Shown here: in pieces, positions 855-10,849 of the stretch
Layout of the letters: every line of letters starts with the position of its first letter
Numbering within the stretch: the stretch's first letter is position 1
Assembly: GCA_950071955.1 (NCBI GenBank)
Contig: CATMOC010000078.1
Coordinates: 1-10,849 of the forward strand
Direction of reading: 5' to 3'
DNA length: 10,849 nt
DNA from: an uncultured Mesorhizobium sp.
Lineage (GTDB): Bacteria > Pseudomonadota > Alphaproteobacteria > Rhizobiales > Rhizobiaceae
Notes under the pieces: generated by a model
What the model was told of the DNA's origin: nothing
The model's database searches: none
Seen by the model: the letters and a program-made list of their open reading frames with translations, nothing else
Made by a program: the position numbers and the translations under genes

Positions 855-1120
855 TCGGCCGCCTCGGGCAGCCTGGGGGCCGGACGCTCGACGTCTTCGG
901 GCCACTCGGCGCCGTCGGGCCAGTTTGCGGAAAACCACGCCATGGCGCGCTCGAACGTACCGGTCGCGATGTCGCGGCGGCCCTCGGCAAGATCCTCGAA
1001 ATGCCCGCCGCGCCCGAAGATCGCTTTCGCGAGCGCAGCGCGGCTCTCGCCCGACGCCGCGCTGTGACGCGCGGCCAGAAGGAGGAGTGCACCAATGAGT
1101 GAGCTTTTGACTTCGGCCAA
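851..1120 (-). CDS. Hypothetical 89-residue early protein, TTG start
   Basis: This is the first gene of the leftward operon, facing the repressor. The only in-frame start near the promoter is TTG at 1120, preceded by a weak GGACGAG. The predicted transcript start is near 1145, giving a leader of about 25 bases. The N-terminal part (residues 8-17, LIGALLLLAA) is hydrophobic but short; the rest is soluble, with a Trp-containing centre (AMAWFSANWPDG) and an acidic, Pro-rich tail. I do not recognise the family. Its position opposite the repressor, behind an operator, resembles the early-left genes of temperate phages. The TTG start makes the exact N-terminus uncertain. The next gene overlaps its stop by 4 nt. 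Confidence 0.55.
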   Translation of the reverse strand: MAEVKSSLIGALLLLAARHSAASGESRAALAKAIFGRGGHFEDLAEGRRDIATGTFERAMAWFSANWPDGAEWPEDVERPAPRLPEAAE

Positions 1121-1151
1121 TGTCTCGTCCGCCCGTGGGAACTGGGGCGGG

Positions 1152-1181
1152 AAAATAAGGGACAGTTTTCCCGTCTGTCAA
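1152..1181 (-). promoter_or_regulatory. Leftward early promoter with operator in its spacer
   Basis: Read on the minus strand, a consensus -35 TTGACA (1181-1176) and a -10 TATTTT (1157-1152) are separated by 18 bases. The spacer contains the palindrome at 1159-1172, so a bound repressor would block RNA polymerase. It drives the 851-1120 and 654-854 genes. Confidence 0.6.
1159..1172. promoter_or_regulatory. Putative repressor operator O3 (GGGA-N6-TCCC)
   Basis: The site GGGACAGTTTTCCC is an inverted repeat GGGA...TCCC with a 6-bp centre. It lies between the -35 and -10 of the leftward promoter. A 15-bp stretch covering most of it (AAGGGACAGTTTTCC, 1157-1171) recurs exactly at 3107-3121. Confidence 0.6.
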
Positions 1182-1195
1182 GGGAATTCAGTCCC
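1182..1195. promoter_or_regulatory. Putative repressor operator O2 (GGGA-N6-TCCC)
   Basis: The site GGGAATTCAGTCCC has the same half-sites and the same 6-bp spacing as its neighbours. It abuts the -35 of the leftward promoter and is centred 23 bp from O3, about two helical turns. Confidence 0.55.
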
Positions 1196-1197
1196 CC

Positions 1198-1226
1198 TTC
1201 AAGACGGTTTTCCGGGGGACGATAAT
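1198..1226 (+). promoter_or_regulatory. Repressor promoter, probably giving a leaderless mRNA
   Basis: The -10 is GATAAT (1221-1226, 5 of 6 to consensus) and the -35 is a weak TTCAAG (1198-1203), 17 bp apart. The expected transcript start, about 7 bases after the -10, falls on the ATG at 1233. No good ribosome binding site lies close to that ATG. A weak -35 is typical of autoregulated maintenance promoters. Confidence 0.5.
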
Positions 1227-1229
1227 CCC
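1216..1229. promoter_or_regulatory. Putative repressor operator O1 (GGGA-N6-TCCC)
   Basis: GGGACGATAATCCC has the family half-sites, and the symmetry extends one base each side (GGGGA...TCCCC, 1215-1230). It covers the -10 of the repressor promoter, so occupancy should shut off the repressor's own gene (negative autoregulation). It is centred 34 bp from O2. Confidence 0.6.
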
Positions 1230-1232
1230 CTG

Positions 1233-1925
1233 ATGGAAACAGACGATGCATTGCACCGGCGCATCCGCGGGCGCATGGACGAACTCGGCCTGACGGAAGA
1301 GAAGGCGAGCCTGCGCGCCGGGCTGGACAAGACCTACATGCGCAAGTTCTTCGAGCGGCCCGGTTCGGCGCCGCGCCACGACACGCTTGCAAAGATCGCC
1401 CGCGCGCTGGAAATGCCGGTTTCCGCCCTGCTCGACCTTCCGCCGGCCGAGGAACCGCCGCCGGCGTTCGACGCCCGGCCCGCGCCGGTCGACATGCCGC
1501 AACCCGCGCACCTGCCAAACGACGTGCCGGTGAAGGGCACCGCCGCCGGGTCGCATCTGCGCGGCGCCTTCCAGCTCGAGGTCGACACCATCGTCGACTG
1601 GGTGCGCCGCCCGCCGGCGCTGTCTGGCGCCCGCCACGCCTATGCGCTGTTCGTCGAGGGCTCGTCGATGGAGCCGCGCTATTTGCCCGGCGACCTGGTG
1701 TTCGTCCACCCCGACCGCCCGCCGCGCCCCGGCGACACCGTCGTGGTGCAGGCCCAGGCCGGCCCGCACGCCCCGCTCGAGGCCACCATCGGCTACCTGC
1801 GCCGCCGCACCGAACGCGCCGTCATCATCGCCAAGATCAACCCCGCCGCCGAGGTGGAGCTCAAGGCCGAGACCGTGAAGGCCATCCACAAGGTGCTGTC
1901 GACGAACGAGCTTTTCGGGGTGTGA
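1233..1925 (+). CDS. cI-like repressor: XRE helix-turn-helix + S24 (LexA-like) domain
   Basis: This is the predicted master repressor of the element, a cytoplasmic DNA-binding protein of 230 residues. Residues about 5-70 form an XRE-type helix-turn-helix. A Pro-rich linker (70-100) follows, and then an S24/LexA-like C-terminal domain with the GSSMEP motif (Ser145 the expected nucleophile) and the closing IHKVLSTNELFGV typical of alphaproteobacterial S24 regulators. A possible cleavage site, Ala105-Gly106 in GTAAGS, is present. The lysine expected in the motif read as VKRL in many relatives seems replaced here (IGYL, Gly187), so self-cleavage is doubtful. I chose ATG 1233 because the HTH begins right after it and because the control region ends there. 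The open frame upstream back to 1095 runs through the operators. The downstream nuclease-like gene overlaps its stop by 4 nt (GTGA), implying a two-gene operon. Confidence 0.85.
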   Translation: METDDALHRRIRGRMDELGLTEEKASLRAGLDKTYMRKFFERPGSAPRHDTLAKIARALEMPVSALLDLPPAEEPPPAFDARPAPVDMPQPAHLPNDVPVKGTAAGSHLRGAFQLEVDTIVDWVRRPPALSGARHAYALFVEGSSMEPRYLPGDLVFVHPDRPPRPGDTVVVQAQAGPHAPLEATIGYLRRRTERAVIIAKINPAAEVELKAETVKAIHKVLSTNELFGV

Positions 1926-2356
1926 GGGCCGTTGTTCTTTGCCTCGGCCTGTGCGCGGCGCTCGCGGCTCCGGCGGCGGAGGCCGGGCCGCGCGACGGGC
2001 CGACGGAACCGGCCTATCTCTACCGTGCCGAGGTCGTGCGCGTCATCGACGGCGACACGATCGTGGTCGACATCGACCTCGGCTTCTACACCTGGCTGCA
2101 CGAGCAGCGGATCCGGCTCTCCGGCATCGACGCGCCCCCGGCGCGCGGTGCGCAAAAGGCCGCCGGCATAGCCGCGACGGACTTTCTCAAGAGCCTGGTC
2201 GACGGCCGGGAGATCATCATCCGCACGTTCAAGGCCAGCGACCGCGGCGACGCCAAGGGCAAGTACGGCCGCTGGCTCGGCCGGATCTACGTCGACGGCC
2301 TTGACGTCAACCAGCGCATGATCGACGCCGGACACGCGGTGCCCTACGACGGGTGA
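1922..2356 (+). CDS. Secreted SNase-fold (thermonuclease-like) protein, catalytic Glu missing
   Basis: The protein has 144 residues. A signal peptide with a cleavage site near AEA-GP (residue 21) predicts export to the periplasm or medium. The staphylococcal-nuclease fold follows: VIDGDT (Asp43, Asp45), RIRLSGIDAP (Arg65 and Asp70, matching Arg35 and Asp40 of the S. aureus enzyme) and KYGR (Arg117, matching Arg87). The general-base glutamate (Glu43 of S. aureus, normally in DAPE or DTPE) is replaced by Pro73 (DAPPA). Calcium-dependent cleavage of DNA and RNA is the family activity, but this copy may be weak or inactive. The start is GTG 1922, overlapping the repressor stop, so it should be co-expressed with the repressor in the lysogen. 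The gene is convergent with the VasI-like gene, and the two stops abut as TGA-TCA. Confidence 0.8.
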   Translation: MRAVVLCLGLCAALAAPAAEAGPRDGPTEPAYLYRAEVVRVIDGDTIVVDIDLGFYTWLHEQRIRLSGIDAPPARGAQKAAGIAATDFLKSLVDGREIIIRTFKASDRGDAKGKYGRWLGRIYVDGLDVNQRMIDAGHAVPYDG

Positions 2357-3019
2357 TCACCAGCCGCAGGCTTCGCGCAGCGGACCGATTGCCTCCTCCA
2401 GCCCCGAGACGGGAAACTCCACCGTGATCGGGCTTTCGCTGTAGGGCGTGGCCCGAACCAGCATCGCATCCTTTCCGAACATCGACTTGATCAGGGGAAT
2501 GGCGCTGCCGCCATTCCACAAGCCAAGGGCGTTGTGGTCGGTCGATTCGGTCATGCGCTTTTCGAAGGCCTTTCCCTTGTCGAGCCGAATGGTGACCACG
2601 CCAAAGGATCCCGTGTCGGCCATGAAGGTGTCGGCGAAATCGAGGATCAGCGCTGTGGTGTTCTCGACACAGCGCAACCATAGCCGCGCCGTGTGAGGCC
2701 GCCCGAACCGATCGGCAAAAGGCTCGCGCGCGGCGACGCTGAGCTGCACCGTCCGGCTGTCGTCGACCGGCGATTTGGCAATGGTGCGTTCCCACGCCGC
2801 GACCTTCGGGGCGATCCGCGATTTCAGGACATCGTCGGCCTTTGCTCGAATCTCTCCCGCGAGACCGTCCATGCAGGCCAGGCGCTTCACGCTATCCGCC
2901 TCGGCCGAGCAGCGGCGCAACCTGGTCTCAAGATCTTCCGCGGCTCTCGCCGGTGCGTGCAAGGCAAGCGCGACCGACATGCAAAGCCACACTACCATGC
3001 CGCGAGGAATCCTCGGCAC
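2357..3019 (-). CDS. VasI/TagO-family secreted protein (T6SS-associated family)
   Basis: This is a 220-residue protein from GTG 3019. I chose that start because AGGGAGG (3025-3031) lies 5 bases upstream and because it gives a textbook signal peptide (basic MPRIPRG, hydrophobic core, ARA-AED cleavage near residue 26). ATG 2998 inside would lack the basic residues. After it come two Cys in a short helical segment (RRCSAEAD...LACMDGL), a coiled middle, and a beta-rich C-terminal domain ending in ATPYSESPITVEF and LREACGW. That ending is the hallmark of the VasI/TagO family (PF11319), named from type VI secretion clusters. No other T6SS gene is present here. With two repressor-like operators just upstream (3079-3122), it looks like an accessory cargo ('moron') gene of the element acting in the envelope. 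The role in this setting is unknown. Confidence 0.75.
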   Translation of the reverse strand: MPRIPRGMVVWLCMSVALALHAPARAAEDLETRLRRCSAEADSVKRLACMDGLAGEIRAKADDVLKSRIAPKVAAWERTIAKSPVDDSRTVQLSVAAREPFADRFGRPHTARLWLRCVENTTALILDFADTFMADTGSFGVVTIRLDKGKAFEKRMTESTDHNALGLWNGGSAIPLIKSMFGKDAMLVRATPYSESPITVEFPVSGLEEAIGPLREACGW

Positions 3020-3024
3020 CCGAA

Positions 3025-3031
3025 CCTCCCT
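3025..3031 (-). promoter_or_regulatory. Ribosome binding site deciding the GTG start at 3019
   Basis: On the minus strand AGGGAGG lies 5 bases before GTG 3019. The alternative ATG at 2998 has nothing comparable at the right distance, and the TTG at 3085 lies inside an operator. Confidence 0.7.
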
Positions 3032-3078
3032 ACTCCCACACTCGCCAGATGTTCGTCCGTCAAGCCGGCAAGAACAAC

Positions 3079-3092
3079 GGGACAATATTCCT
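3079..3092. promoter_or_regulatory. Putative repressor operator upstream of the VasI-like gene
   Basis: GGGACAATATTCCT matches the GGGA-N6-TCCC pattern at 7 of 8 half-site positions and shares the inner CA with the sites at 1159 and 3109. It lies about 60-70 bp upstream of the GTG start of the VasI-like gene, where that gene's promoter should be. Confidence 0.5.
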
Positions 3093-3101
3093 CATCACGG
3101 A

Positions 3102-3129
3102 TTGACAAGGGACAGTTTTCCTATCTATT
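3102..3129 (+). promoter_or_regulatory. Rightward promoter with operator in its spacer
   Basis: The -35 is a perfect TTGACA (3102-3107), and the best -10 is TCTATT (3124-3129, 4 of 6) at 16 bp. The spacer is occupied by the operator at 3109-3122, the same design as the leftward promoter at 1152-1181. No gene starts just downstream on this strand; the next plus-strand gene begins at 3852. The reverse strand also offers TTGTCA (3108-3103) with a TATTGT 15 bp away, which could serve the VasI-like gene. Confidence 0.45.
3109..3122. promoter_or_regulatory. Putative repressor operator inside the rightward promoter
   Basis: GGGACAGTTTTCCT is identical to O3 at 1159-1172 except for the last base, and it is centred 30 bp from the site at 3079-3092. 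A further half-site (TTGTCCC, the complement of GGGACAA) lies at 3128-3134. Confidence 0.6.
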
Positions 3130-3172
3130 GTCCCCTCCCATCGCAATCCAGAGAGGGGAGCCATTGGGTATG

Positions 3173-3853
3173 TCAACCATCTGCGCCTTTCGCGGTTCGC
3201 GCGCGACGTTCTTCCACCATCCTCGGCAGCGTGATCAGGTAGCGCAGGAATGCATCGGCGAAATCGCGCGCAGCGGCCACTTCGTCGCGCGTCACGCCGT
3301 CGTCGTGCGCTCCGTCGTTGCGCACCACCCGCACCTCGTCCGCCCAGTCCGCCATGGCCTGCGGGATGATCCGGTCCTTCGCAAGCGTCTTGATGCGGGA
3401 TGCCAGGGTCCCCGATACCTCCGGATGCGACTCTTTCAGGGCGAGTTCGATTGCGCGGCCGTAAAACACCGCCGCCGGTTCCTCGCAGCCTGCCCGATCG
3501 AAATTGACTTCCGCCTGCCGCAGCGCCCGCTCCACGCGCTCCGGGAGGTGCTCCAGCGCCGCGCGCGGCGCCTCAATGAACCTGAGTTCGACGACATAGC
3601 CCGCATGCTCGACGTCTGCATTCCGCTGCAGCGCTTCTGTGAGGCGCTGGTTCTGCTTCGGGATGTCGATGATGTTCATCGGGAGGATCTTGAACCCGTA
3701 GGGGAACACGCACTTCCCGCAATAGGCAGCTCCGACCGCGAACCACTTCCTGTAATCGTTCTCGAAGAACTCGGGCGGCGGCGGCGTGGCGGCAATGATG
3801 TTCATCATCGTGTCCACATTGCACACCCGGCACTTCGCTACGAGGAATGCCAT
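3173..3853 (-). CDS. Zinc-ribbon + DUF4145 protein (HEPN-like)
   Basis: The protein has 226 residues. ATG 3853 is chosen over an upstream in-frame start because GGAGG (3858-3862) lies 4 bases before it. The N-terminus carries two CxxC pairs (Cys8/Cys11 and Cys45/Cys48), a likely zinc ribbon. Residues about 120-215 match DUF4145, with AVFYGRAIELAL, then RVVRNDGAHD, then a closing helix pair. The segment Arg178-N-D-G-A-His183 fits the Rx4-6H motif of HEPN ribonucleases, to which DUF4145 has been linked; that link is from memory. DUF4145 occurs alone or attached to restriction and other defence proteins. A role as an RNA-acting defence or toxin protein is inference. Its start codon overlaps the start of the divergent operon at 3852, and the rightward promoter at 3102 reads antisense through it. 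Confidence 0.75.
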   Translation of the reverse strand: MAFLVAKCRVCNVDTMMNIIAATPPPPEFFENDYRKWFAVGAAYCGKCVFPYGFKILPMNIIDIPKQNQRLTEALQRNADVEHAGYVVELRFIEAPRAALEHLPERVERALRQAEVNFDRAGCEEPAAVFYGRAIELALKESHPEVSGTLASRIKTLAKDRIIPQAMADWADEVRVVRNDGAHDDGVTRDEVAAARDFADAFLRYLITLPRMVEERRARTAKGADG

Positions 3854-4079
3854 GCTGCCTCCGCCTGACTGGGACAAGGAGGCGAACCGCCTCCTCGCCG
3901 AGGCCATGGCTCTGCCACCCGGCCCGGCCCTCGCCGCACTCTACGACGCATGGTTGCGCACGGGCAACAACCCCGCGCTTCGCGACGCTTTGGTGCGCGC
4001 GATCATCGGCGAAGCGGTGGCGCTCCGCCAAGTCACTCAGATGAAGACTTCACCCTCTCACAAGGTGCCCCTGCCATGA
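3852..4079 (+). CDS. Hypothetical 75-residue protein, first gene of the integrase operon
   Basis: The start is ATG 3852, with GAGGA (3842-3846) 5 bases before it. The start codon shares the palindrome CATG (3851-3854) with the start of the divergent DUF4145 gene, so the two genes have no intergenic space. The protein is short, with acidic and then helical residues (DWDKEANRLLAEAMALPPG, WLRTGNNPALRDALVRAIIGEAV). It has no signal peptide or membrane span, and I do not recognise it. Its TGA overlaps the next ATG (ATGA at 4076-4079), which begins a chain of coupled genes ending in the integrase. Confidence 0.65.
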   Translation: MLPPPDWDKEANRLLAEAMALPPGPALAALYDAWLRTGNNPALRDALVRAIIGEAVALRQVTQMKTSPSHKVPLP

Positions 4080-4366
4080 TCGACTATCGCGTTTCCGATT
4101 TCGCTGCCGGCGTTGCCGGTCTGCCGCCGCGCGCGCCGTGCCTGAAGGCCGCCGACCCGGTCCGGCAGCTCGCCATTGCCATGATCGAGCTGGAGGCCGA
4201 GGGCGCGACCGTCGACGCCGCCGCGCTGCAGGTCAGCACCAGGCTGTCGCGCCGTGTCATCGACGAACTGGCCGAGGCCGCCGCCGAGCACGCCTATGCG
4301 CTGCAGCGCAGGAGCGCCCGCATTCGCGTCCCAGCCACAGCTCGTTCGGATCGGGCGGGAGCGTGA
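4076..4366 (+). CDS. Hypothetical 96-residue protein, helical centre
   Basis: The start is ATG 4076, overlapping the previous stop, with AAGGTG about 8 bases upstream. Residues about 28-78 look all-helical and include ATVDAAALQVSTRLSRRVID, which could be a helix-turn-helix (a helix, a short turn, then an Arg-rich second helix), but the match is weak. The C-terminal 20 residues are basic and disordered-looking. If it binds DNA, a role as excision factor or operon regulator would fit its place upstream of the integrase; this is speculation. The family is not recognised. The gene ends 7 bases before the next start. Confidence 0.6.
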   Translation: MIDYRVSDFAAGVAGLPPRAPCLKAADPVRQLAIAMIELEAEGATVDAAALQVSTRLSRRVIDELAEAAAEHAYALQRRSARIRVPATARSDRAGA

Positions 4367-4373
4367 GGCGGCC

Positions 4374-4487
4374 ATGGACGCCCTTCTCGATCGCGCCTGC
4401 GGCTATGCAGCCGCCCGGCCCCGGCTGATCTGCGCCATCCTTTGCGCCTTCTTTCTCCTCGGCGGCACCCTGGAGACGCTGGCATGA
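4374..4487 (+). CDS. 37-residue membrane miniprotein
   Basis: This is a very short frame from ATG 4374, 7 bases after the previous stop, with a modest GTGAGGC upstream. A basic/polar N-terminal part (DRACGYAAARPR) is followed by one hydrophobic segment at about residues 18-31 (LICAILCAFFLLGG). The stop overlaps the next ATG in the same ATGA pattern as its neighbours, which is the main reason to believe it. Function unknown. Confidence 0.5.
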   Translation: MDALLDRACGYAAARPRLICAILCAFFLLGGTLETLA

Positions 4488-4813
4488 ACCGCTTCGATCT
4501 GAACGCCGGCCGCGACCGCGACGGGCGCGCCGGATACGTCCGCTGCCCGCCCGATTATGCTCGCGACCCGGCGATGGAAGCAAAGGCGCCGGCCAATCCG
4601 TTCCGCATCCGCAACGGAATGGAAGGCGAGGCACGCCGGCGCCTGGCCGTACTCCTCCTCGCCGTCGCGCTGATCTGCGGCATCTGCGTCGGTGGCGCAG
4701 CACTCGCCGCCGCATGGCTCGGCAAGCCGGACGCCGTCGCCACCACCGCGATCGACCAGGATGGTATTTCGAGGTCCCTTTCGCGGGGCGAACCACGTGC
4801 GGTACAGCCATGA
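4484..4813 (+). CDS. Hypothetical 109-residue single-pass membrane protein
   Basis: The start is ATG 4484, overlapping the previous stop by 4 nt. A soluble, charged N-terminal half of about 50 residues (two Arg/Asp-rich stretches and one Cys) comes first. An Arg patch (RRR, 51-53) and one long hydrophobic segment (about 54-79, rich in Leu, Ala, Val and Gly) follow, with a 30-residue tail. The Arg patch before the span predicts the N-terminal half in the cytoplasm and the tail in the periplasm. The family is not recognised. It is coupled by ATGA to the DUF5131 gene. Confidence 0.6.
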   Translation: MNRFDLNAGRDRDGRAGYVRCPPDYARDPAMEAKAPANPFRIRNGMEGEARRRLAVLLLAVALICGICVGGAALAAAWLGKPDAVATTAIDQDGISRSLSRGEPRAVQP

Positions 4814-6003
4814 CCACCATCGAATGGACCCGGCGCCCGGGCACGAAGGGCGAAACCTGGAACCCGGTCGTCGGATGCGACATCGTCTCACCCGGCTGTA
4901 CGCATTGCTATGCCATGAAGAGGGCGGAGCGTATCCAGAGGATGAGCGACGGCCTCGGCCGCGAGACCCACTATGCCGGCACCACGAAGCCATCGAAAGC
5001 GGGTCCGGTCTGGACCGGCACGGTCAACGTCGCGCCCGACGACGTCCTGACGAAGCCGCTGCGCTGGAAATCGCCCCGCACGGTCTTCGTCAACTCCATG
5101 TCGGACCTGTTCCACGAGGCCGTGCCCGACGAGACGATCGACCGCATCTTCGCCGTCATGGCCCTCACCCCGCAGCACACCTATCAGGTGCTGACCAAGC
5201 GCTCGGCGCGGATGCAGGCATACATCACCCGACTGCATGACGAACCGGTCCGCGACACCGTCCGGCGGATTGTGGCTGCATGGCCGGGTCAGGCGCCGGT
5301 TCCGGACGAAATTGCGATCCCGCTCCCCAACGTCTGGCTCGGCGTATCGGCAGAGCGCCAGAAGGAAGCCGACGAACGCATCCCCGACCTTCTGACCACC
5401 CCCGCCGCCATCCGCTTCGTTTCGGCCGAGCCGCTGCTGGAGGCGATCGATTTCGCGCGCATCGGAACGCTCGACGCGATTCGAGCGGCATTCCCCTCGA
5501 TGGTGGAACGCATCGAACAAGACAGCCGGCCGTCGATCGTGTCGGGCATGCAGATTGACGTCGTCAGTGGCCGTAATCAGGCAACGATCTTCCATCAGAC
5601 GCCCGATCATACGGGCGGGTTCACCATTAGGTTCCCACGCCCCTTTCCCCGCCTCGATCAGATCATCGTCGGCGGCGAATCTGGCCCGGACGCCCGCCCT
5701 ATGCACCCCGCCTGGGCGCGCCAGATCCGCGACCAGTGCGCCGCCGCCGGCACGGCCTTCTTTTTCAAGCAGTGGGGAGCGTGGGAGCCTGTCTCGGAGA
5801 CCCGTCCGGACGCCAGGGACTGGGGTCGCGATTGGATGCTGCTCGATAATCGCGGCGTTCTGGACATACCGGATGACCGGGTACCGATGGAAGACCTCGG
5901 CGAGGTCGCTGTCGCAAACGTCGGCAGATCCCGCGCTGGCCGCTGCCTTGACGGCCGCGAGCACAACGAATGGCCGAGCGCGCTGCAGGTGCCGTTCCCA
6001 TGA
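4810..6003 (+). CDS. DUF5131 / phage Gp37-Gp68 family three-cysteine protein
   Basis: The protein has 397 residues from ATG 4810, which overlaps the previous stop. The N-terminus shows the family signature: IEWT, TWNP, then GCDIVSPGCTHCYAMK with Cys23, Cys30 and Cys33. The middle has SMSDLFHE and TKRSARM, then VWLGVSAERQ and RFVSAEPLLE. The end has IIVGGESGPDARPMHPAWAR and FFFKQWG. All are typical of PF07505 (Gp37/Gp68). The Cys cluster and barrel-like repeats recall radical SAM enzymes, but no reaction is established that I know of. A stretch at about 218-280 between SAEPLLE and IIVGGES looks longer than usual. The three-Cys-motif partner TcmP, which I recall travelling with this family, is absent here. 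It is common in phages and islands of rhizobia. Confidence 0.85.
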   Translation: MTTIEWTRRPGTKGETWNPVVGCDIVSPGCTHCYAMKRAERIQRMSDGLGRETHYAGTTKPSKAGPVWTGTVNVAPDDVLTKPLRWKSPRTVFVNSMSDLFHEAVPDETIDRIFAVMALTPQHTYQVLTKRSARMQAYITRLHDEPVRDTVRRIVAAWPGQAPVPDEIAIPLPNVWLGVSAERQKEADERIPDLLTTPAAIRFVSAEPLLEAIDFARIGTLDAIRAAFPSMVERIEQDSRPSIVSGMQIDVVSGRNQATIFHQTPDHTGGFTIRFPRPFPRLDQIIVGGESGPDARPMHPAWARQIRDQCAAAGTAFFFKQWGAWEPVSETRPDARDWGRDWMLLDNRGVLDIPDDRVPMEDLGEVAVANVGRSRAGRCLDGREHNEWPSALQVPFP

Positions 6004-6179
6004 TCATCTCCCTCGGCCTCCTCGCCTATCTCGCCGCCTTCGCCTTTATGCTCGCATATGGCCCGACTCGGCACGATCGCGCGCTCGGTGTCGTCTTCCG
6101 ACCCCTGATCCTGCTCGTGATGCTCGCCGTCCTCTGGGCTCTCACCACCGGCCTCCGGCCGGCGAGGAGGAGAGGATGA
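6000..6179 (+). CDS. Small two-helix membrane protein (59 aa)
   Basis: The start is ATG 6000, overlapping the stop of the DUF5131 gene (ATGA). Two hydrophobic segments, about residues 2-20 (ending LAYG) and 33-50 (PLILLVMLAVLWALTTG), flank a short polar loop with Arg, His and Asp. The tail is PARRRG. Both termini are probably cytoplasmic. Function unknown. The size and topology would fit a holin-like or envelope-active phage protein, but there is no lysis gene nearby to support that. Confidence 0.6.
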   Translation: MIISLGLLAYLAAFAFMLAYGPTRHDRALGVVFRPLILLVMLAVLWALTTGLRPARRRG

Positions 6180-6514
6180 AACCGCGTCTCACGCGCGATG
6201 TGCTCGAGTGTCGCTCCTTCCCGAAATGCCCGCACTGCGACGGAGACATGAACGACAGCACTATCACGCTGGAGGATCTTGCCTCTGCCTGGCCAGTGCC
6301 GGCGGCGATCGAGGTCGCACATGACGGTTACGCCCGCGGCCACCAGAGCCTCGTCGCGACCTGCGGCTGGTGCGCCGCCCCCTCGGCTGTCGCGATAGAC
6401 TGGGGCTACTTCAAGCTCGTCGCCATGCGCACCGAAAAGGATGAGCGCTATCTGGGTGAGCAGTCGGGAAGGCGGCAGAGCGGCTCCGTCGACAGCGGAG
6501 GCTGCGACCTGTGA
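6176..6514 (+). CDS. Hypothetical 112-residue zinc-ribbon-like protein
   Basis: The start is ATG 6176, with a strong AGGAGGAGAGG directly upstream and a 4-nt overlap with the previous gene. Two Cys pairs, CPHC (Cys18/Cys21) and CGWC (Cys63/Cys66), are spaced as in a zinc ribbon with a long insert. A conserved-looking aromatic stretch (DWGYFKLVAM) follows, then a polar, Ser/Gly/Arg-rich tail after about residue 90. The family is not recognised. Nucleic-acid or protein contact through the zinc site is the likely mode. It is coupled by GTGA to the next gene. Confidence 0.6.
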   Translation: MKPRLTRDVLECRSFPKCPHCDGDMNDSTITLEDLASAWPVPAAIEVAHDGYARGHQSLVATCGWCAAPSAVAIDWGYFKLVAMRTEKDERYLGEQSGRRQSGSVDSGGCDL

Positions 6515-6696
6515 CCGCCCGCCCCTCCCGCGCCCTCGTCTTGCCGGCCCGTCAGGTCACCGCGCTTTGCAAGGGCGCCGCAAAGGCGGGCTGCATCGCT
6601 GAGGTGCAGATCGGCGACCTGGTCGTGCGGCTCGTGCCTGCAGACAGTCGCGGTCCGCGGAAAGAGCTTGATGACGAAGAGGTGATTGAGCTTTGA
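6511..6696 (+). CDS. Hypothetical 61-residue protein preceding the integrase
   Basis: It begins with GTG 6511 (GTGA overlap with the previous stop) and ends in TGA 6694-6696, sharing one base with the integrase ATG. Residues 12-30 look helical (PARQVTALCKGAAKAGC) and 31-43 form a likely beta pair (EVQIGDLVVRLVP). The tail is acidic (ELDDEEVIEL). I do not recognise it with certainty. Its tight coupling to the integrase suggests a product needed with it, for example an excision or directionality protein, but this is inference and no helix-turn-helix is evident. Confidence 0.6.
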   Translation: MTARPSRALVLPARQVTALCKGAAKAGCIAEVQIGDLVVRLVPADSRGPRKELDDEEVIEL

Positions 6697-7769
6697 TGCG
6701 CGACATGCCCCGCAAGCTCCCGCCCTTCGTCACGAAAGAGCTCACGCGCCACAAGAAGTGGGTCTACTACTTCCGCCGCGGCAAGGGACCGCGCACGCGC
6801 CTTCCAGCGATCGACCACCAAGATTTCGACGAGGCCTACGAGGCGACGCTGGCAGGATCTCCGCGACGCACGAAGCGGGTTGCCAACACCAAAAGCCTTG
6901 AATGGCTGGTCACCCGGTATCGTGAGACGTCGACCTATCGTGGCCTCTCGGCGGCGACCAGGAAGCAGCGCGACAACATCCTGAAGCACGTGCTGGAGAA
7001 GTCCGGTGACAAGGAATTCCGCAAGATCAACCGGGCGGCGATCGTGCAGGGGCGCGAGAAGCGGGCGTCGACACCCGCCCAGGCCCGCAACTTCCTCGAC
7101 GCGATGCGCGGGCTGTTCCGCTGGGCGCTGGAGGCCGACCTCGTGTCGATCGATCCGACCGCAGGGGTGAAGAACCCGGCACGGCCGAAGACCGGCGGGT
7201 TCGAGGCTTGGAGCGAAGACGACGTGGTTGCCTATGAGCGGCGCTGGCAAGCCGGCACGAAGGAGCGTGTCTGGCTGCACGTCCTGCTCTACACGGGCCT
7301 GCGCCGCGGCGACGCCGTGCAGTTGGGGCGCCAGCATGTGCGCGACGGCGTCGCGACGATCAGGACGGAGAAGACGGGAACCGAGGTCTCCATCCCGATC
7401 CTGCCCGTTCTGGAAGGGACGCTGCGCGATGGGCCGACCGGCGATCTCGCCTTCATCGTCGGCGAACGTGGCCTCCCGCTGACGAAGGAGACCTTCGGCA
7501 ACATGTTCCGCAAGGCCTGCAACGCCGCCGGCCTGAAGGGCAAGTCGGCCCATGGCGTGCGCAAGATCGGCGCCACGCGCGCCGCCGAAGCCGGCGCAAC
7601 CGTCGCCGAACTGGAGGCGCTCTTCGGTTGGACTGGCGGAACGATGGCGTCGCACTACACGAGGAAAGCCGACCGGAAACGGCTGGCCAAATCCGCTTCG
7701 GAAAAGATCATGAACGCCCAACGCCCGCACCTTGACTACCCGGTGCGGGGAAACGGCCAGAAAAGCTAA
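6696..7769 (+). CDS. int: Phage-type tyrosine integrase
   Basis: This 357-residue site-specific recombinase inserts and excises the element at the neighbouring tRNA-Leu gene. Residues about 1-60 form an N-terminal, basic part (HKKWVYYFRRGKG), 65-160 the core-binding SAM-like domain, and 170-340 the catalytic domain. The active-site set is visible in order: Arg203 (TGLRRGD), Lys226 (EKTG), His286 and Arg289 (HGVRK), Trp312 (GWTGG, where others have His) and the nucleophile Tyr321 (HYTRK). The length and all catalytic residues are normal, so it should be active. The start is ATG 6696, within the TGATG overlap with the previous stop. A TTG one codon upstream is possible. It is the last gene of the operon, ending 25 bp from the 3' end of the tRNA, the usual layout for tRNA-integrated elements. 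Confidence 0.93.
   Translation: MRDMPRKLPPFVTKELTRHKKWVYYFRRGKGPRTRLPAIDHQDFDEAYEATLAGSPRRTKRVANTKSLEWLVTRYRETSTYRGLSAATRKQRDNILKHVLEKSGDKEFRKINRAAIVQGREKRASTPAQARNFLDAMRGLFRWALEADLVSIDPTAGVKNPARPKTGGFEAWSEDDVVAYERRWQAGTKERVWLHVLLYTGLRRGDAVQLGRQHVRDGVATIRTEKTGTEVSIPILPVLEGTLRDGPTGDLAFIVGERGLPLTKETFGNMFRKACNAAGLKGKSAHGVRKIGATRAAEAGATVAELEALFGWTGGTMASHYTRKADRKRLAKSASEKIMNAQRPHLDYPVRGNGQKS
7724..7749. repeat. 8-bp inverted repeat in the integrase 3' end
   Basis: CCCGCACC (7724-7731) and GGTGCGGG (7742-7749) pair perfectly around a 10-nt loop, inside the last codons of the integrase and 46 bp from the tRNA. There is no T run, so it is a poor intrinsic terminator. It could be an integrase arm site, a transcript-stabilising hairpin, or chance. 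Confidence 0.4.
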
Positions 7770-7794
7770 GGCGTTCAGATACTTGAAAATCGAA

Positions 7795-7835
7795 TGGTGC
7801 GGTCGAGAAGACTCGAACTTCCACGGGTTGCCCCA
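7795..7835. other. Probable attachment site (3' part of tRNA-Leu)
   Basis: Integrases of this type usually recombine within the T-arm/anticodon-side 3' half of a tRNA and restore the tRNA gene from the element's own copy. The bases from the CCA end into the T-arm are the likely core. The exact core length cannot be seen without the other junction. Confidence 0.45.
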
Positions 7836-7879
7836 CAGCGACCTCAACGCTGCGCGTCTACCAATTCCGCCACGACCGC
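7795..7879 (-). tRNA. tRNA-Leu (anticodon GAG)
   Basis: The minus-strand cloverleaf has acceptor arms GCGGTCG (7879-7873) and CGACCGC (7805-7799), discriminator A and an encoded CCA (7797-7795). It has the D-arm motif AATTGGTAGACGC, anticodon stem CAGCG/CGCTG around TTGAGGT (anticodon GAG, reading CUC/CUU), the long variable arm of class II leucine tRNAs, and the T-loop TTCGAGT. Total length is 85 nt including CCA. It serves as the integration target of the element, which left the tRNA intact but replaced its downstream flank. Confidence 0.95.
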
Positions 7880-10564: not shown

Positions 10565-10585
10565 CGGCGCCGTCAGTAGGCGCCG
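10565..10585. terminator. Hairpin between convergent genes, possible terminator
   Basis: CGGCGCC (10565-10571) and GGCGCCG (10579-10585) form a perfect 7-bp stem with a 7-nt loop. The loop holds the stop codon of the minus-strand miniprotein. It begins 2 bases after the ggt stop. No T run follows on either strand, so it may act as a weak or Rho-assisted terminator. Confidence 0.45.
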
Positions 10586-10659
10586 ATCCACATGGCCATG
10601 GTGATGATGAAGAGGCTCACAGACACGAGCGAGGCGACGTCCTGGACGATGTCAGTCAT
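10573..10659 (-). CDS. SOS-controlled 28-residue membrane protein (SidA-like candidate)
   Basis: This is a short minus-strand gene: ATG at 10659, stop at 10575-10573, with GGGAGAA 6 bases before the start. The 28 residues are an acidic, polar N-terminus (MTDIVQDVAS) followed by one hydrophobic segment (about residues 11-28, LVSVSLFIITMAMWIGAY). This predicts a single inner-membrane span with almost nothing outside it. The promoter at 10690-10719 carries a perfect alphaproteobacterial LexA box between -35 and -10. In Caulobacter, SidA is a 29-residue inner-membrane protein induced by LexA loss that blocks division through FtsW/FtsN. Size, topology and control match, but homology is inferred, not shown. 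It lies between ggt and a lolD-like gene on the core chromosome, outside the element. Confidence 0.75.
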   Translation of the reverse strand: MTDIVQDVASLVSVSLFIITMAMWIGAY

Positions 10660-10689
10660 GTTCGTTCTCCCGGTTTCGCTTATGTCCCT

Positions 10690-10719
10690 ATAATGTTCTC
10701 TTTCTGTTCTGATTTGCAA
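10690..10719 (-). promoter_or_regulatory. Promoter of the SOS miniprotein
   Basis: On the minus strand the -35 is TTGCAA (10719-10714) and the -10 is CATTAT (10695-10690), 18 bp apart. The expected transcript start near 10683 gives a leader of about 24 nt that includes the ribosome binding site. Confidence 0.5.
10695..10709. promoter_or_regulatory. LexA (SOS) box GTTC-N7-GTTC
   Basis: GTTCTCTTTCTGTTC is an exact match to the direct-repeat LexA site of Alphaproteobacteria (GTTC-N7-GTTC). It fills the spacer of the miniprotein promoter, where LexA would block RNA polymerase. DNA damage should therefore switch the gene on. Confidence 0.8.
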
Positions 10720-10736: not shown

Positions 10737-10760
10737 CCGGACTCCTCCTGCCAAGTCCGG
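10737..10760. repeat. 7-bp inverted repeat after the lolD-like gene
   Basis: CCGGACT (10737-10743) and AGTCCGG (10754-10760) pair around a 10-nt loop, 30 bp downstream of the lolD-like stop. No T run follows on the minus strand, so termination is only possible. Confidence 0.4.
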
Positions 10761-10789: not shown

Positions 10790-10849
10790 TCAGAAGTCGA
10801 CGACCTTGCCTTCCGCCAGCGTGACGCGGCGATCCATACGCGCGGCAAG
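10790..10849 (-). CDS. lolD: C-terminus of a LolD-like ABC transporter ATPase (partial)
   Basis: Only the last 19 codons and the TGA (10792-10790) are inside the window. The residues read LAARMDRRVTLAEGKVVDF, the usual end of LolD-type ATPases after the switch-histidine helix (the lipoprotein-releasing LolCDE complex at the inner membrane) and of close relatives such as MacB-type or FtsE-like ATPases. In rhizobia lolD commonly lies beside lolE and dnaE, which would fit, but those genes are outside the view. The assignment is made from this tail only. Confidence 0.6.
   Translation of the reverse strand, partial: LAARMDRRVTLAEGKVVDF

Follow-up and report, generated by a model that had tools for sequence, protein, structure and literature searches.

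The division inhibitor SidA of Caulobacter crescentus is described as a 29-residue, SOS-induced protein of the inner membrane that interacts with FtsW and FtsN (PMC4211646), and models presented in a 2026 study, which were not of high confidence, placed it on TM7 of FtsW (PMC13396833). The gene is listed as CCNA_02004 (PMC10769358), and Caulobacter dnaE appears as CC1926 in a table of PMC1839093. Further damage-induced proteins are described in the sources consulted, namely the 71-residue, SOS-independent DidA (PMC4211646), the Gram-positive SOS membrane inhibitors YneA, SosA, and ChiZ (PMC13396833), and DinQ, a toxic single-span SOS peptide of E. coli (PMC3567139). A literature search, with most subscription papers outside its reach, found no paper on SidA outside Caulobacter, rhizobia included. 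A search of 61 genomes for SulA (PF03846) at E <= 0.001 detected it in none, with the E. coli control positive. These relatives therefore lack a recognisable SulA, and in the sources consulted sidA is described for Caulobacter only.

Close to the end of the window (the whole 10,849-nt stretch of DNA that was analysed), the preliminary description had placed a 28-codon gene with a ribosome-binding site, one membrane span, and a perfect LexA box in the spacer of its promoter. The sequence agreed with each of these claims, the span being a predicted one and the promoter itself matching only 8 of 12 consensus positions. The features are as follows.

10573..10659, minus strand: candidate SOS membrane peptide gene, 28 codons plus stop (ORF, relatives, pN/pS, profile link to inferred SidA)
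10667..10671, minus strand: ribosome-binding site GGGAG (sequence; spacing to the ATG 7 nt)
10690..10695, minus strand: -10 element CATTAT (sequence; under the promoter-scan threshold)
10695..10709, minus strand: LexA box, GAAC-N7-GAAC on the coding strand (sequence and conservation)
10714..10719, minus strand: -35 element TTGCAA (sequence; TTG[AC]N conserved ahead of the box)
10790..10849, minus strand: 3' end of lolD (lipoprotein-release ABC ATPase), the upstream neighbour (read from sequence; stop at 10792-10790)

The ORF runs from the ATG at 10659-10657 to the TGA at 10575-10573 and encodes the 28-residue product MTDIVQDVASLVSVSLFIITMAMWIGAY, with a single predicted membrane span at residues 8-26 (best 19-residue hydropathy 2.08). 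Pfam and NCBIfam scans of this ORF returned zero matches. The 18-nt promoter spacer is filled by the LexA box, the last base of which overlaps the -10 element. By consensus the promoter is weak, and a promoter scan with a threshold of 9/12 found none. Within the window GTTC-N7-GTTC occurs only here; 0.32 instances are expected per window by chance, and at least one appeared in 58 of 200 shuffles. The box by itself was not significant, and the case therefore rests on conservation. Of 102 loci with a box, 89 carried TTG[AC]N no more than 12 nt ahead of the first one. Two repeats were noted: an inverted repeat (CCGGACT...AGTCCGG, 10737-10760) with no T run lies between lolD and the small gene, and a GGCGCC repeat at 10566-10584 spans the stop codon. 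The latter could form a hairpin, and this candidate separates the small gene from the convergent gamma-glutamyltranspeptidase gene.

Elsewhere in the window, positions 1095-7879 are likely an integrative element at a tRNA-Leu gene (7795-7879, minus strand), with the following genes as parts of it.

1095..1925: S24-type repressor
2357..3085: VasI-like protein
4714..6003: DUF5131 protein
6693..7769: integrase

Conservation of the frame and of the box was examined in several sets of genomes. The relatives' set consisted of 61 genomes (this genome and 60 relatives) searched at E <= 10, and 33 of them gave peptide matches. A perfect GAAC-N7-GAAC lay within 130 nt upstream of the match in 26 of the 30 relatives' loci returned; of these 30, one had a box with one mismatch (L010) and one was boxless (L014). 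The matches at L020 and L021 were rejected as chance matches inside long frames. With additional family members found via dnaE-upstream stretches and extra regions, the family (G000-G036, 37 genomes) had the gene in 35 of its genomes; the box was perfect in 33 of these and carried one mismatch in the other two (G029 and G016). It was not found, by dnaE-upstream reading and peptide search, in the two smallest genomes of the family, G009 (2.0 Mb) and G010 (1.1 Mb). Second copies (loci L390, L391, and L392) were seen in G020, as a 32-residue paralogue with no perfect box in the stretch read, and in G012, where one copy is boxed (L391) and the other (C37) has its nearest perfect box about 400 nt upstream.

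The search of named genomes yielded 96 confirmed loci, of which the best 80 entered the counts. The peptide was exactly 28 residues long in all 80, and a perfect box lay within 90 nt upstream in 79, the exception being L068 with imperfect boxes. An intact 28-codon frame was found in 105 of 112 loci examined, these 105 comprising 83 distinct DNAs and 53 distinct proteins, and the pooled pN/pS was 0.24 over the 1947 pairs passing divergence limits, indicating purifying selection. The preliminary description had proposed looking for the frame and the LexA box in related genomes, and both proved to be conserved there.

That description had also named lolD and dnaE as the neighbours to look for. 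On the same strand and starting within 3.3 kb, lolD was found upstream in 72 of the 80 named loci. Among the eight others, L085, L096, L102, and L110 have less than 300 nt of upstream sequence, L079 is rearranged, and L033, L040, and L084 carry the gene away from lolD. The constancy of this neighbour, unmatched by any other, would suit a damage-induced regulator of some other membrane target, such as the envelope or the export of lipoproteins, that stays near lolD for a functional reason. However, the gene has a LexA promoter of its own and the last three loci keep it without lolD beside it, and we consider such a regulator distinctly improbable.

The second neighbour behaved differently. Within the stretch covered, dnaE lay downstream in 2 of the 80 named loci, which are mostly Mesorhizobium, and in 14 of the 30 relatives' loci, with lolD and dnaE both present in 11 of the 30. 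In this genome dnaE is on a separate contig (C346), and no box-plus-ORF was found upstream of it there. The gene order in S. meliloti CP090106 is lolC, lolD, the unannotated 28-residue ORF, and dnaE, and in Shinella records the gene is flanked by lolD and dnaE. Thus the expected synteny held steadily for lolD, whereas for dnaE it held in part of the relatives and failed in most named loci and in this genome. The S. meliloti record itself (L147, CP090106.1, 3.7 Mb) is labelled pSymB; it includes dnaE, genes of the lolC/lolD type, and one for a proline tRNA ligase, and looks like a mislabelled chromosome.

Ribosome profiling in S. meliloti reported sORF25 in the dnaE1 5'-UTR and noted that some of the listed sORFs could be uORFs (PMC10117765). 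From its place upstream of dnaE1, the 28-residue copy of S. meliloti is probably sORF25. A leader peptide tuning dnaE expression, as suggested in print for sORF25, would be in keeping with this location (PMC10117765) and with the occurrence of such ORFs upstream of dnaE in many genomes. Nevertheless, the gene persists away from dnaE, which disfavours this reading: 78 of the 80 named loci have no dnaE following within the stretch covered, this genome has its boxed gene behind lolD with dnaE on another contig, and the LexA box sits in the ORF's own promoter. A dnaE-linked leader peptide was rejected as a candidate on the linkage counts given above, and a uORF function is in our view very improbable indeed.

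The stretch upstream of dnaE was then used for counting over wider samples, where a counted ORF was a membrane ORF of 24-45 residues with a perfect box. In the order sample (90 examined of 110 genomes with a dnaE match), box and ORF were found in 41 of 90 Hyphomicrobiales genomes, belonging to 22 of 41 families, and in 48 of 90 when one box mismatch was allowed. The class sample (69 examined of 121 with a match, being the best-matching and mostly larger genomes) gave 13 of 69, among them G130, which belongs to the same order. In the window's family, 11 of 20 genomes had box and ORF, these 20 having been partly picked because the peptide search missed them. A reversed-box control with ORF was found in 0/90, 0/69, and 0/20 genomes at perfect match, and in 16/90, 5/69, and 1/20 at one mismatch; calls at one mismatch are therefore weak. 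The ORF filter in the class sample admitted doubtful cases (G199, G176, and G181), and G130 fitted only at an odd offset. When the class peptides were compared with the profile, 9 of the 12 scored (G117 left out of 13) were matched or beaten by no more than 51 of 10,000 shuffles; the poor fits were G181 (221 per 10,000), G176 (890), and G199 as called (9075). In 13 genomes, 6 of the order sample and 7 of the class sample, dnaE was preceded by a perfect box and by no ORF that satisfied the filter.

Caulobacteraceae were located via an RNA family, and in 23 genomes chosen out of 99 the stretch upstream of dnaE was read. Just upstream of dnaE, a hydrophobic ORF of 28-31 residues was present in 22 of the 23; no such ORF was found in the stretch read in G448. 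A perfect box occurred within 700 nt in 13 of the 23, the other nine ORF-bearing genomes having imperfect boxes as judged by eye, and in 12 lolD was no further than 1.5 kb upstream of dnaE. As for RNA families, the Caulobacter family CC2171 (RF01867) matched 69 of 290 class genomes at E <= 0.001, 10 of them above the family cut-off, and the match in this genome (G000:C46:3649-3831) was below it.

Genome G506 had the best RNA-family score among the 99 Caulobacteraceae and contains the LexA box GTTCTTGTTATGTTC, which is the box reported for two Caulobacter genes (PMC12700426). Based on this score and this box, G506 was taken to be C. crescentus-like. Its slot upstream of dnaE holds a 29-residue membrane ORF with a perfect LexA box. 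The shift between CC and CCNA numbers presumably puts sidA (CCNA_02004) close to dnaE (CC1926). Given the membrane ORF, its box, the reported features of SidA, and these gene numbers, we strongly infer that the ORF is SidA, an identification resting on location, length, box, and gene numbers rather than on sequence comparison.

A first class-wide profile search gave no significant match outside the order. A matrix was then built from 51 Hyphomicrobiales peptides, with Caulobacteraceae excluded, and for the G506 peptide 0 of 10,000 shuffles scored as well, the register being the same. Shuffling the N-terminal part and the rest apart gave the same result (z 6.0 and 5.8 for the two kinds of shuffle). 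For 14 other Caulobacteraceae peptides, restricted shuffles as good numbered 0 to 248 of 10,000, with G445 the worst. The background comprised 2,633 peptides that begin at a start codon and have a hydrophobic stretch, taken from all loci of the analysis, and 83 of them reached the score of inferred SidA (itself counted). By reading of the list all 83 belong to the family, with many training rows or near copies among them; the best-scoring peptide that was clearly unrelated had -1.4, versus 15.6 for inferred SidA. Profile-profile comparison by hhalign gave E 1.4e-5 (columns 2-22 versus 1-21), and 2e-5 with the Rhizobiaceae alignment. The Rhizobiaceae-only matrix was weak against inferred SidA, with z 2.1; its score was reached by 621 of 20,000 shuffles and by 5 of 1782 hydrophobic decoy windows. 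Pairwise identity between the window peptide and inferred SidA was 7/28 in the same register. By these alignment measures the Hyphomicrobiales peptides and inferred SidA are related at the profile level, and it is at this level that the comparison with SidA advised at the outset turned out positive.

The size class, the single span, and the SOS control are shared with LexA-controlled peptides of the TisB/DinQ kind, which would slow growth by loss of the proton gradient instead of binding the divisome. TisB is small and acts as a membrane-depolarising peptide. The conserved slot, the purifying selection, and the profile relation to inferred SidA fit the orthologue of a divisome inhibitor instead, and we regard a depolarising peptide as unlikely. 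An Rfam search of the window returned the tRNA alone and no antisense antitoxin RNA family.

The preliminary description had proposed a SidA-type inhibitor by analogy, and the conserved frame and box, the lolD neighbour, and the profile relation all supported it. Because inferred SidA sits in the same dnaE slot with a LexA box of its own and the two peptide families appear related, the relation is probably more than analogy. With an ORF under coding selection, a conserved LexA box, a slot at lolD and/or dnaE, and the profile relation, all read from sequence, we consider it quite likely that the gene is the rhizobial sidA orthologue, silenced by LexA, released by damage, and blocking late division via the septal complex. 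LexA at the promoter spacer would keep the gene silent, and upon DNA damage RecA-triggered cleavage of LexA would release it. The 28-residue peptide would then enter the inner membrane as a single helix and block a late division step until repair is done, most probably through contact with the FtsW/FtsI/FtsN complex of septal synthesis, with FtsW/FtsN as the putative target. One FtsW/RodA-family protein was found in this genome.

It is also fairly likely that SidA is not a Caulobacter speciality, and that alphaproteobacteria share an old gene, anchored at lolD-dnaE and with a box that could be misread as dnaE control, which encodes a single-span division inhibitor of about 30 residues under LexA control. 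Such a gene is easily missed by annotation because of its small size. If the gene is a SidA orthologue, one small gene would answer how division stops after damage across much of the class, a natural variant series would be at hand for mapping the FtsW/FtsN contact, and the reading of the LexA site beside dnaE, the replicative polymerase gene, would be corrected.

Compared by description, DidA of Caulobacter is likewise a small, single-span, damage-induced division inhibitor, but it is longer and not under LexA control. YneA, SosA, and ChiZ, also compared by description, share the strategy of a membrane protein acting against a late division step. To our knowledge, they are larger than the 28-residue peptide and unrelated to it. 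As reported, sORF25 is translated from the dnaE1 5'-UTR, which is also the location of the S. meliloti relative; in print it was read as a possible uORF. SidA shares a length of about 29 residues, a single predicted span, and a LexA box in the promoter, as well as the slot upstream of dnaE, which for SidA derives from G506 and the published gene numbers and on our side belongs to the wider family and not to this genome. Counted from the start codon in the same register, position 7 is acidic and position 17 is F in both the window peptide and inferred SidA. In contrast, neither K nor R occurs in the window peptide, which carries two D near its N-terminus where inferred SidA has two R, and the FVWM motif of the Caulobacteraceae is absent from it.
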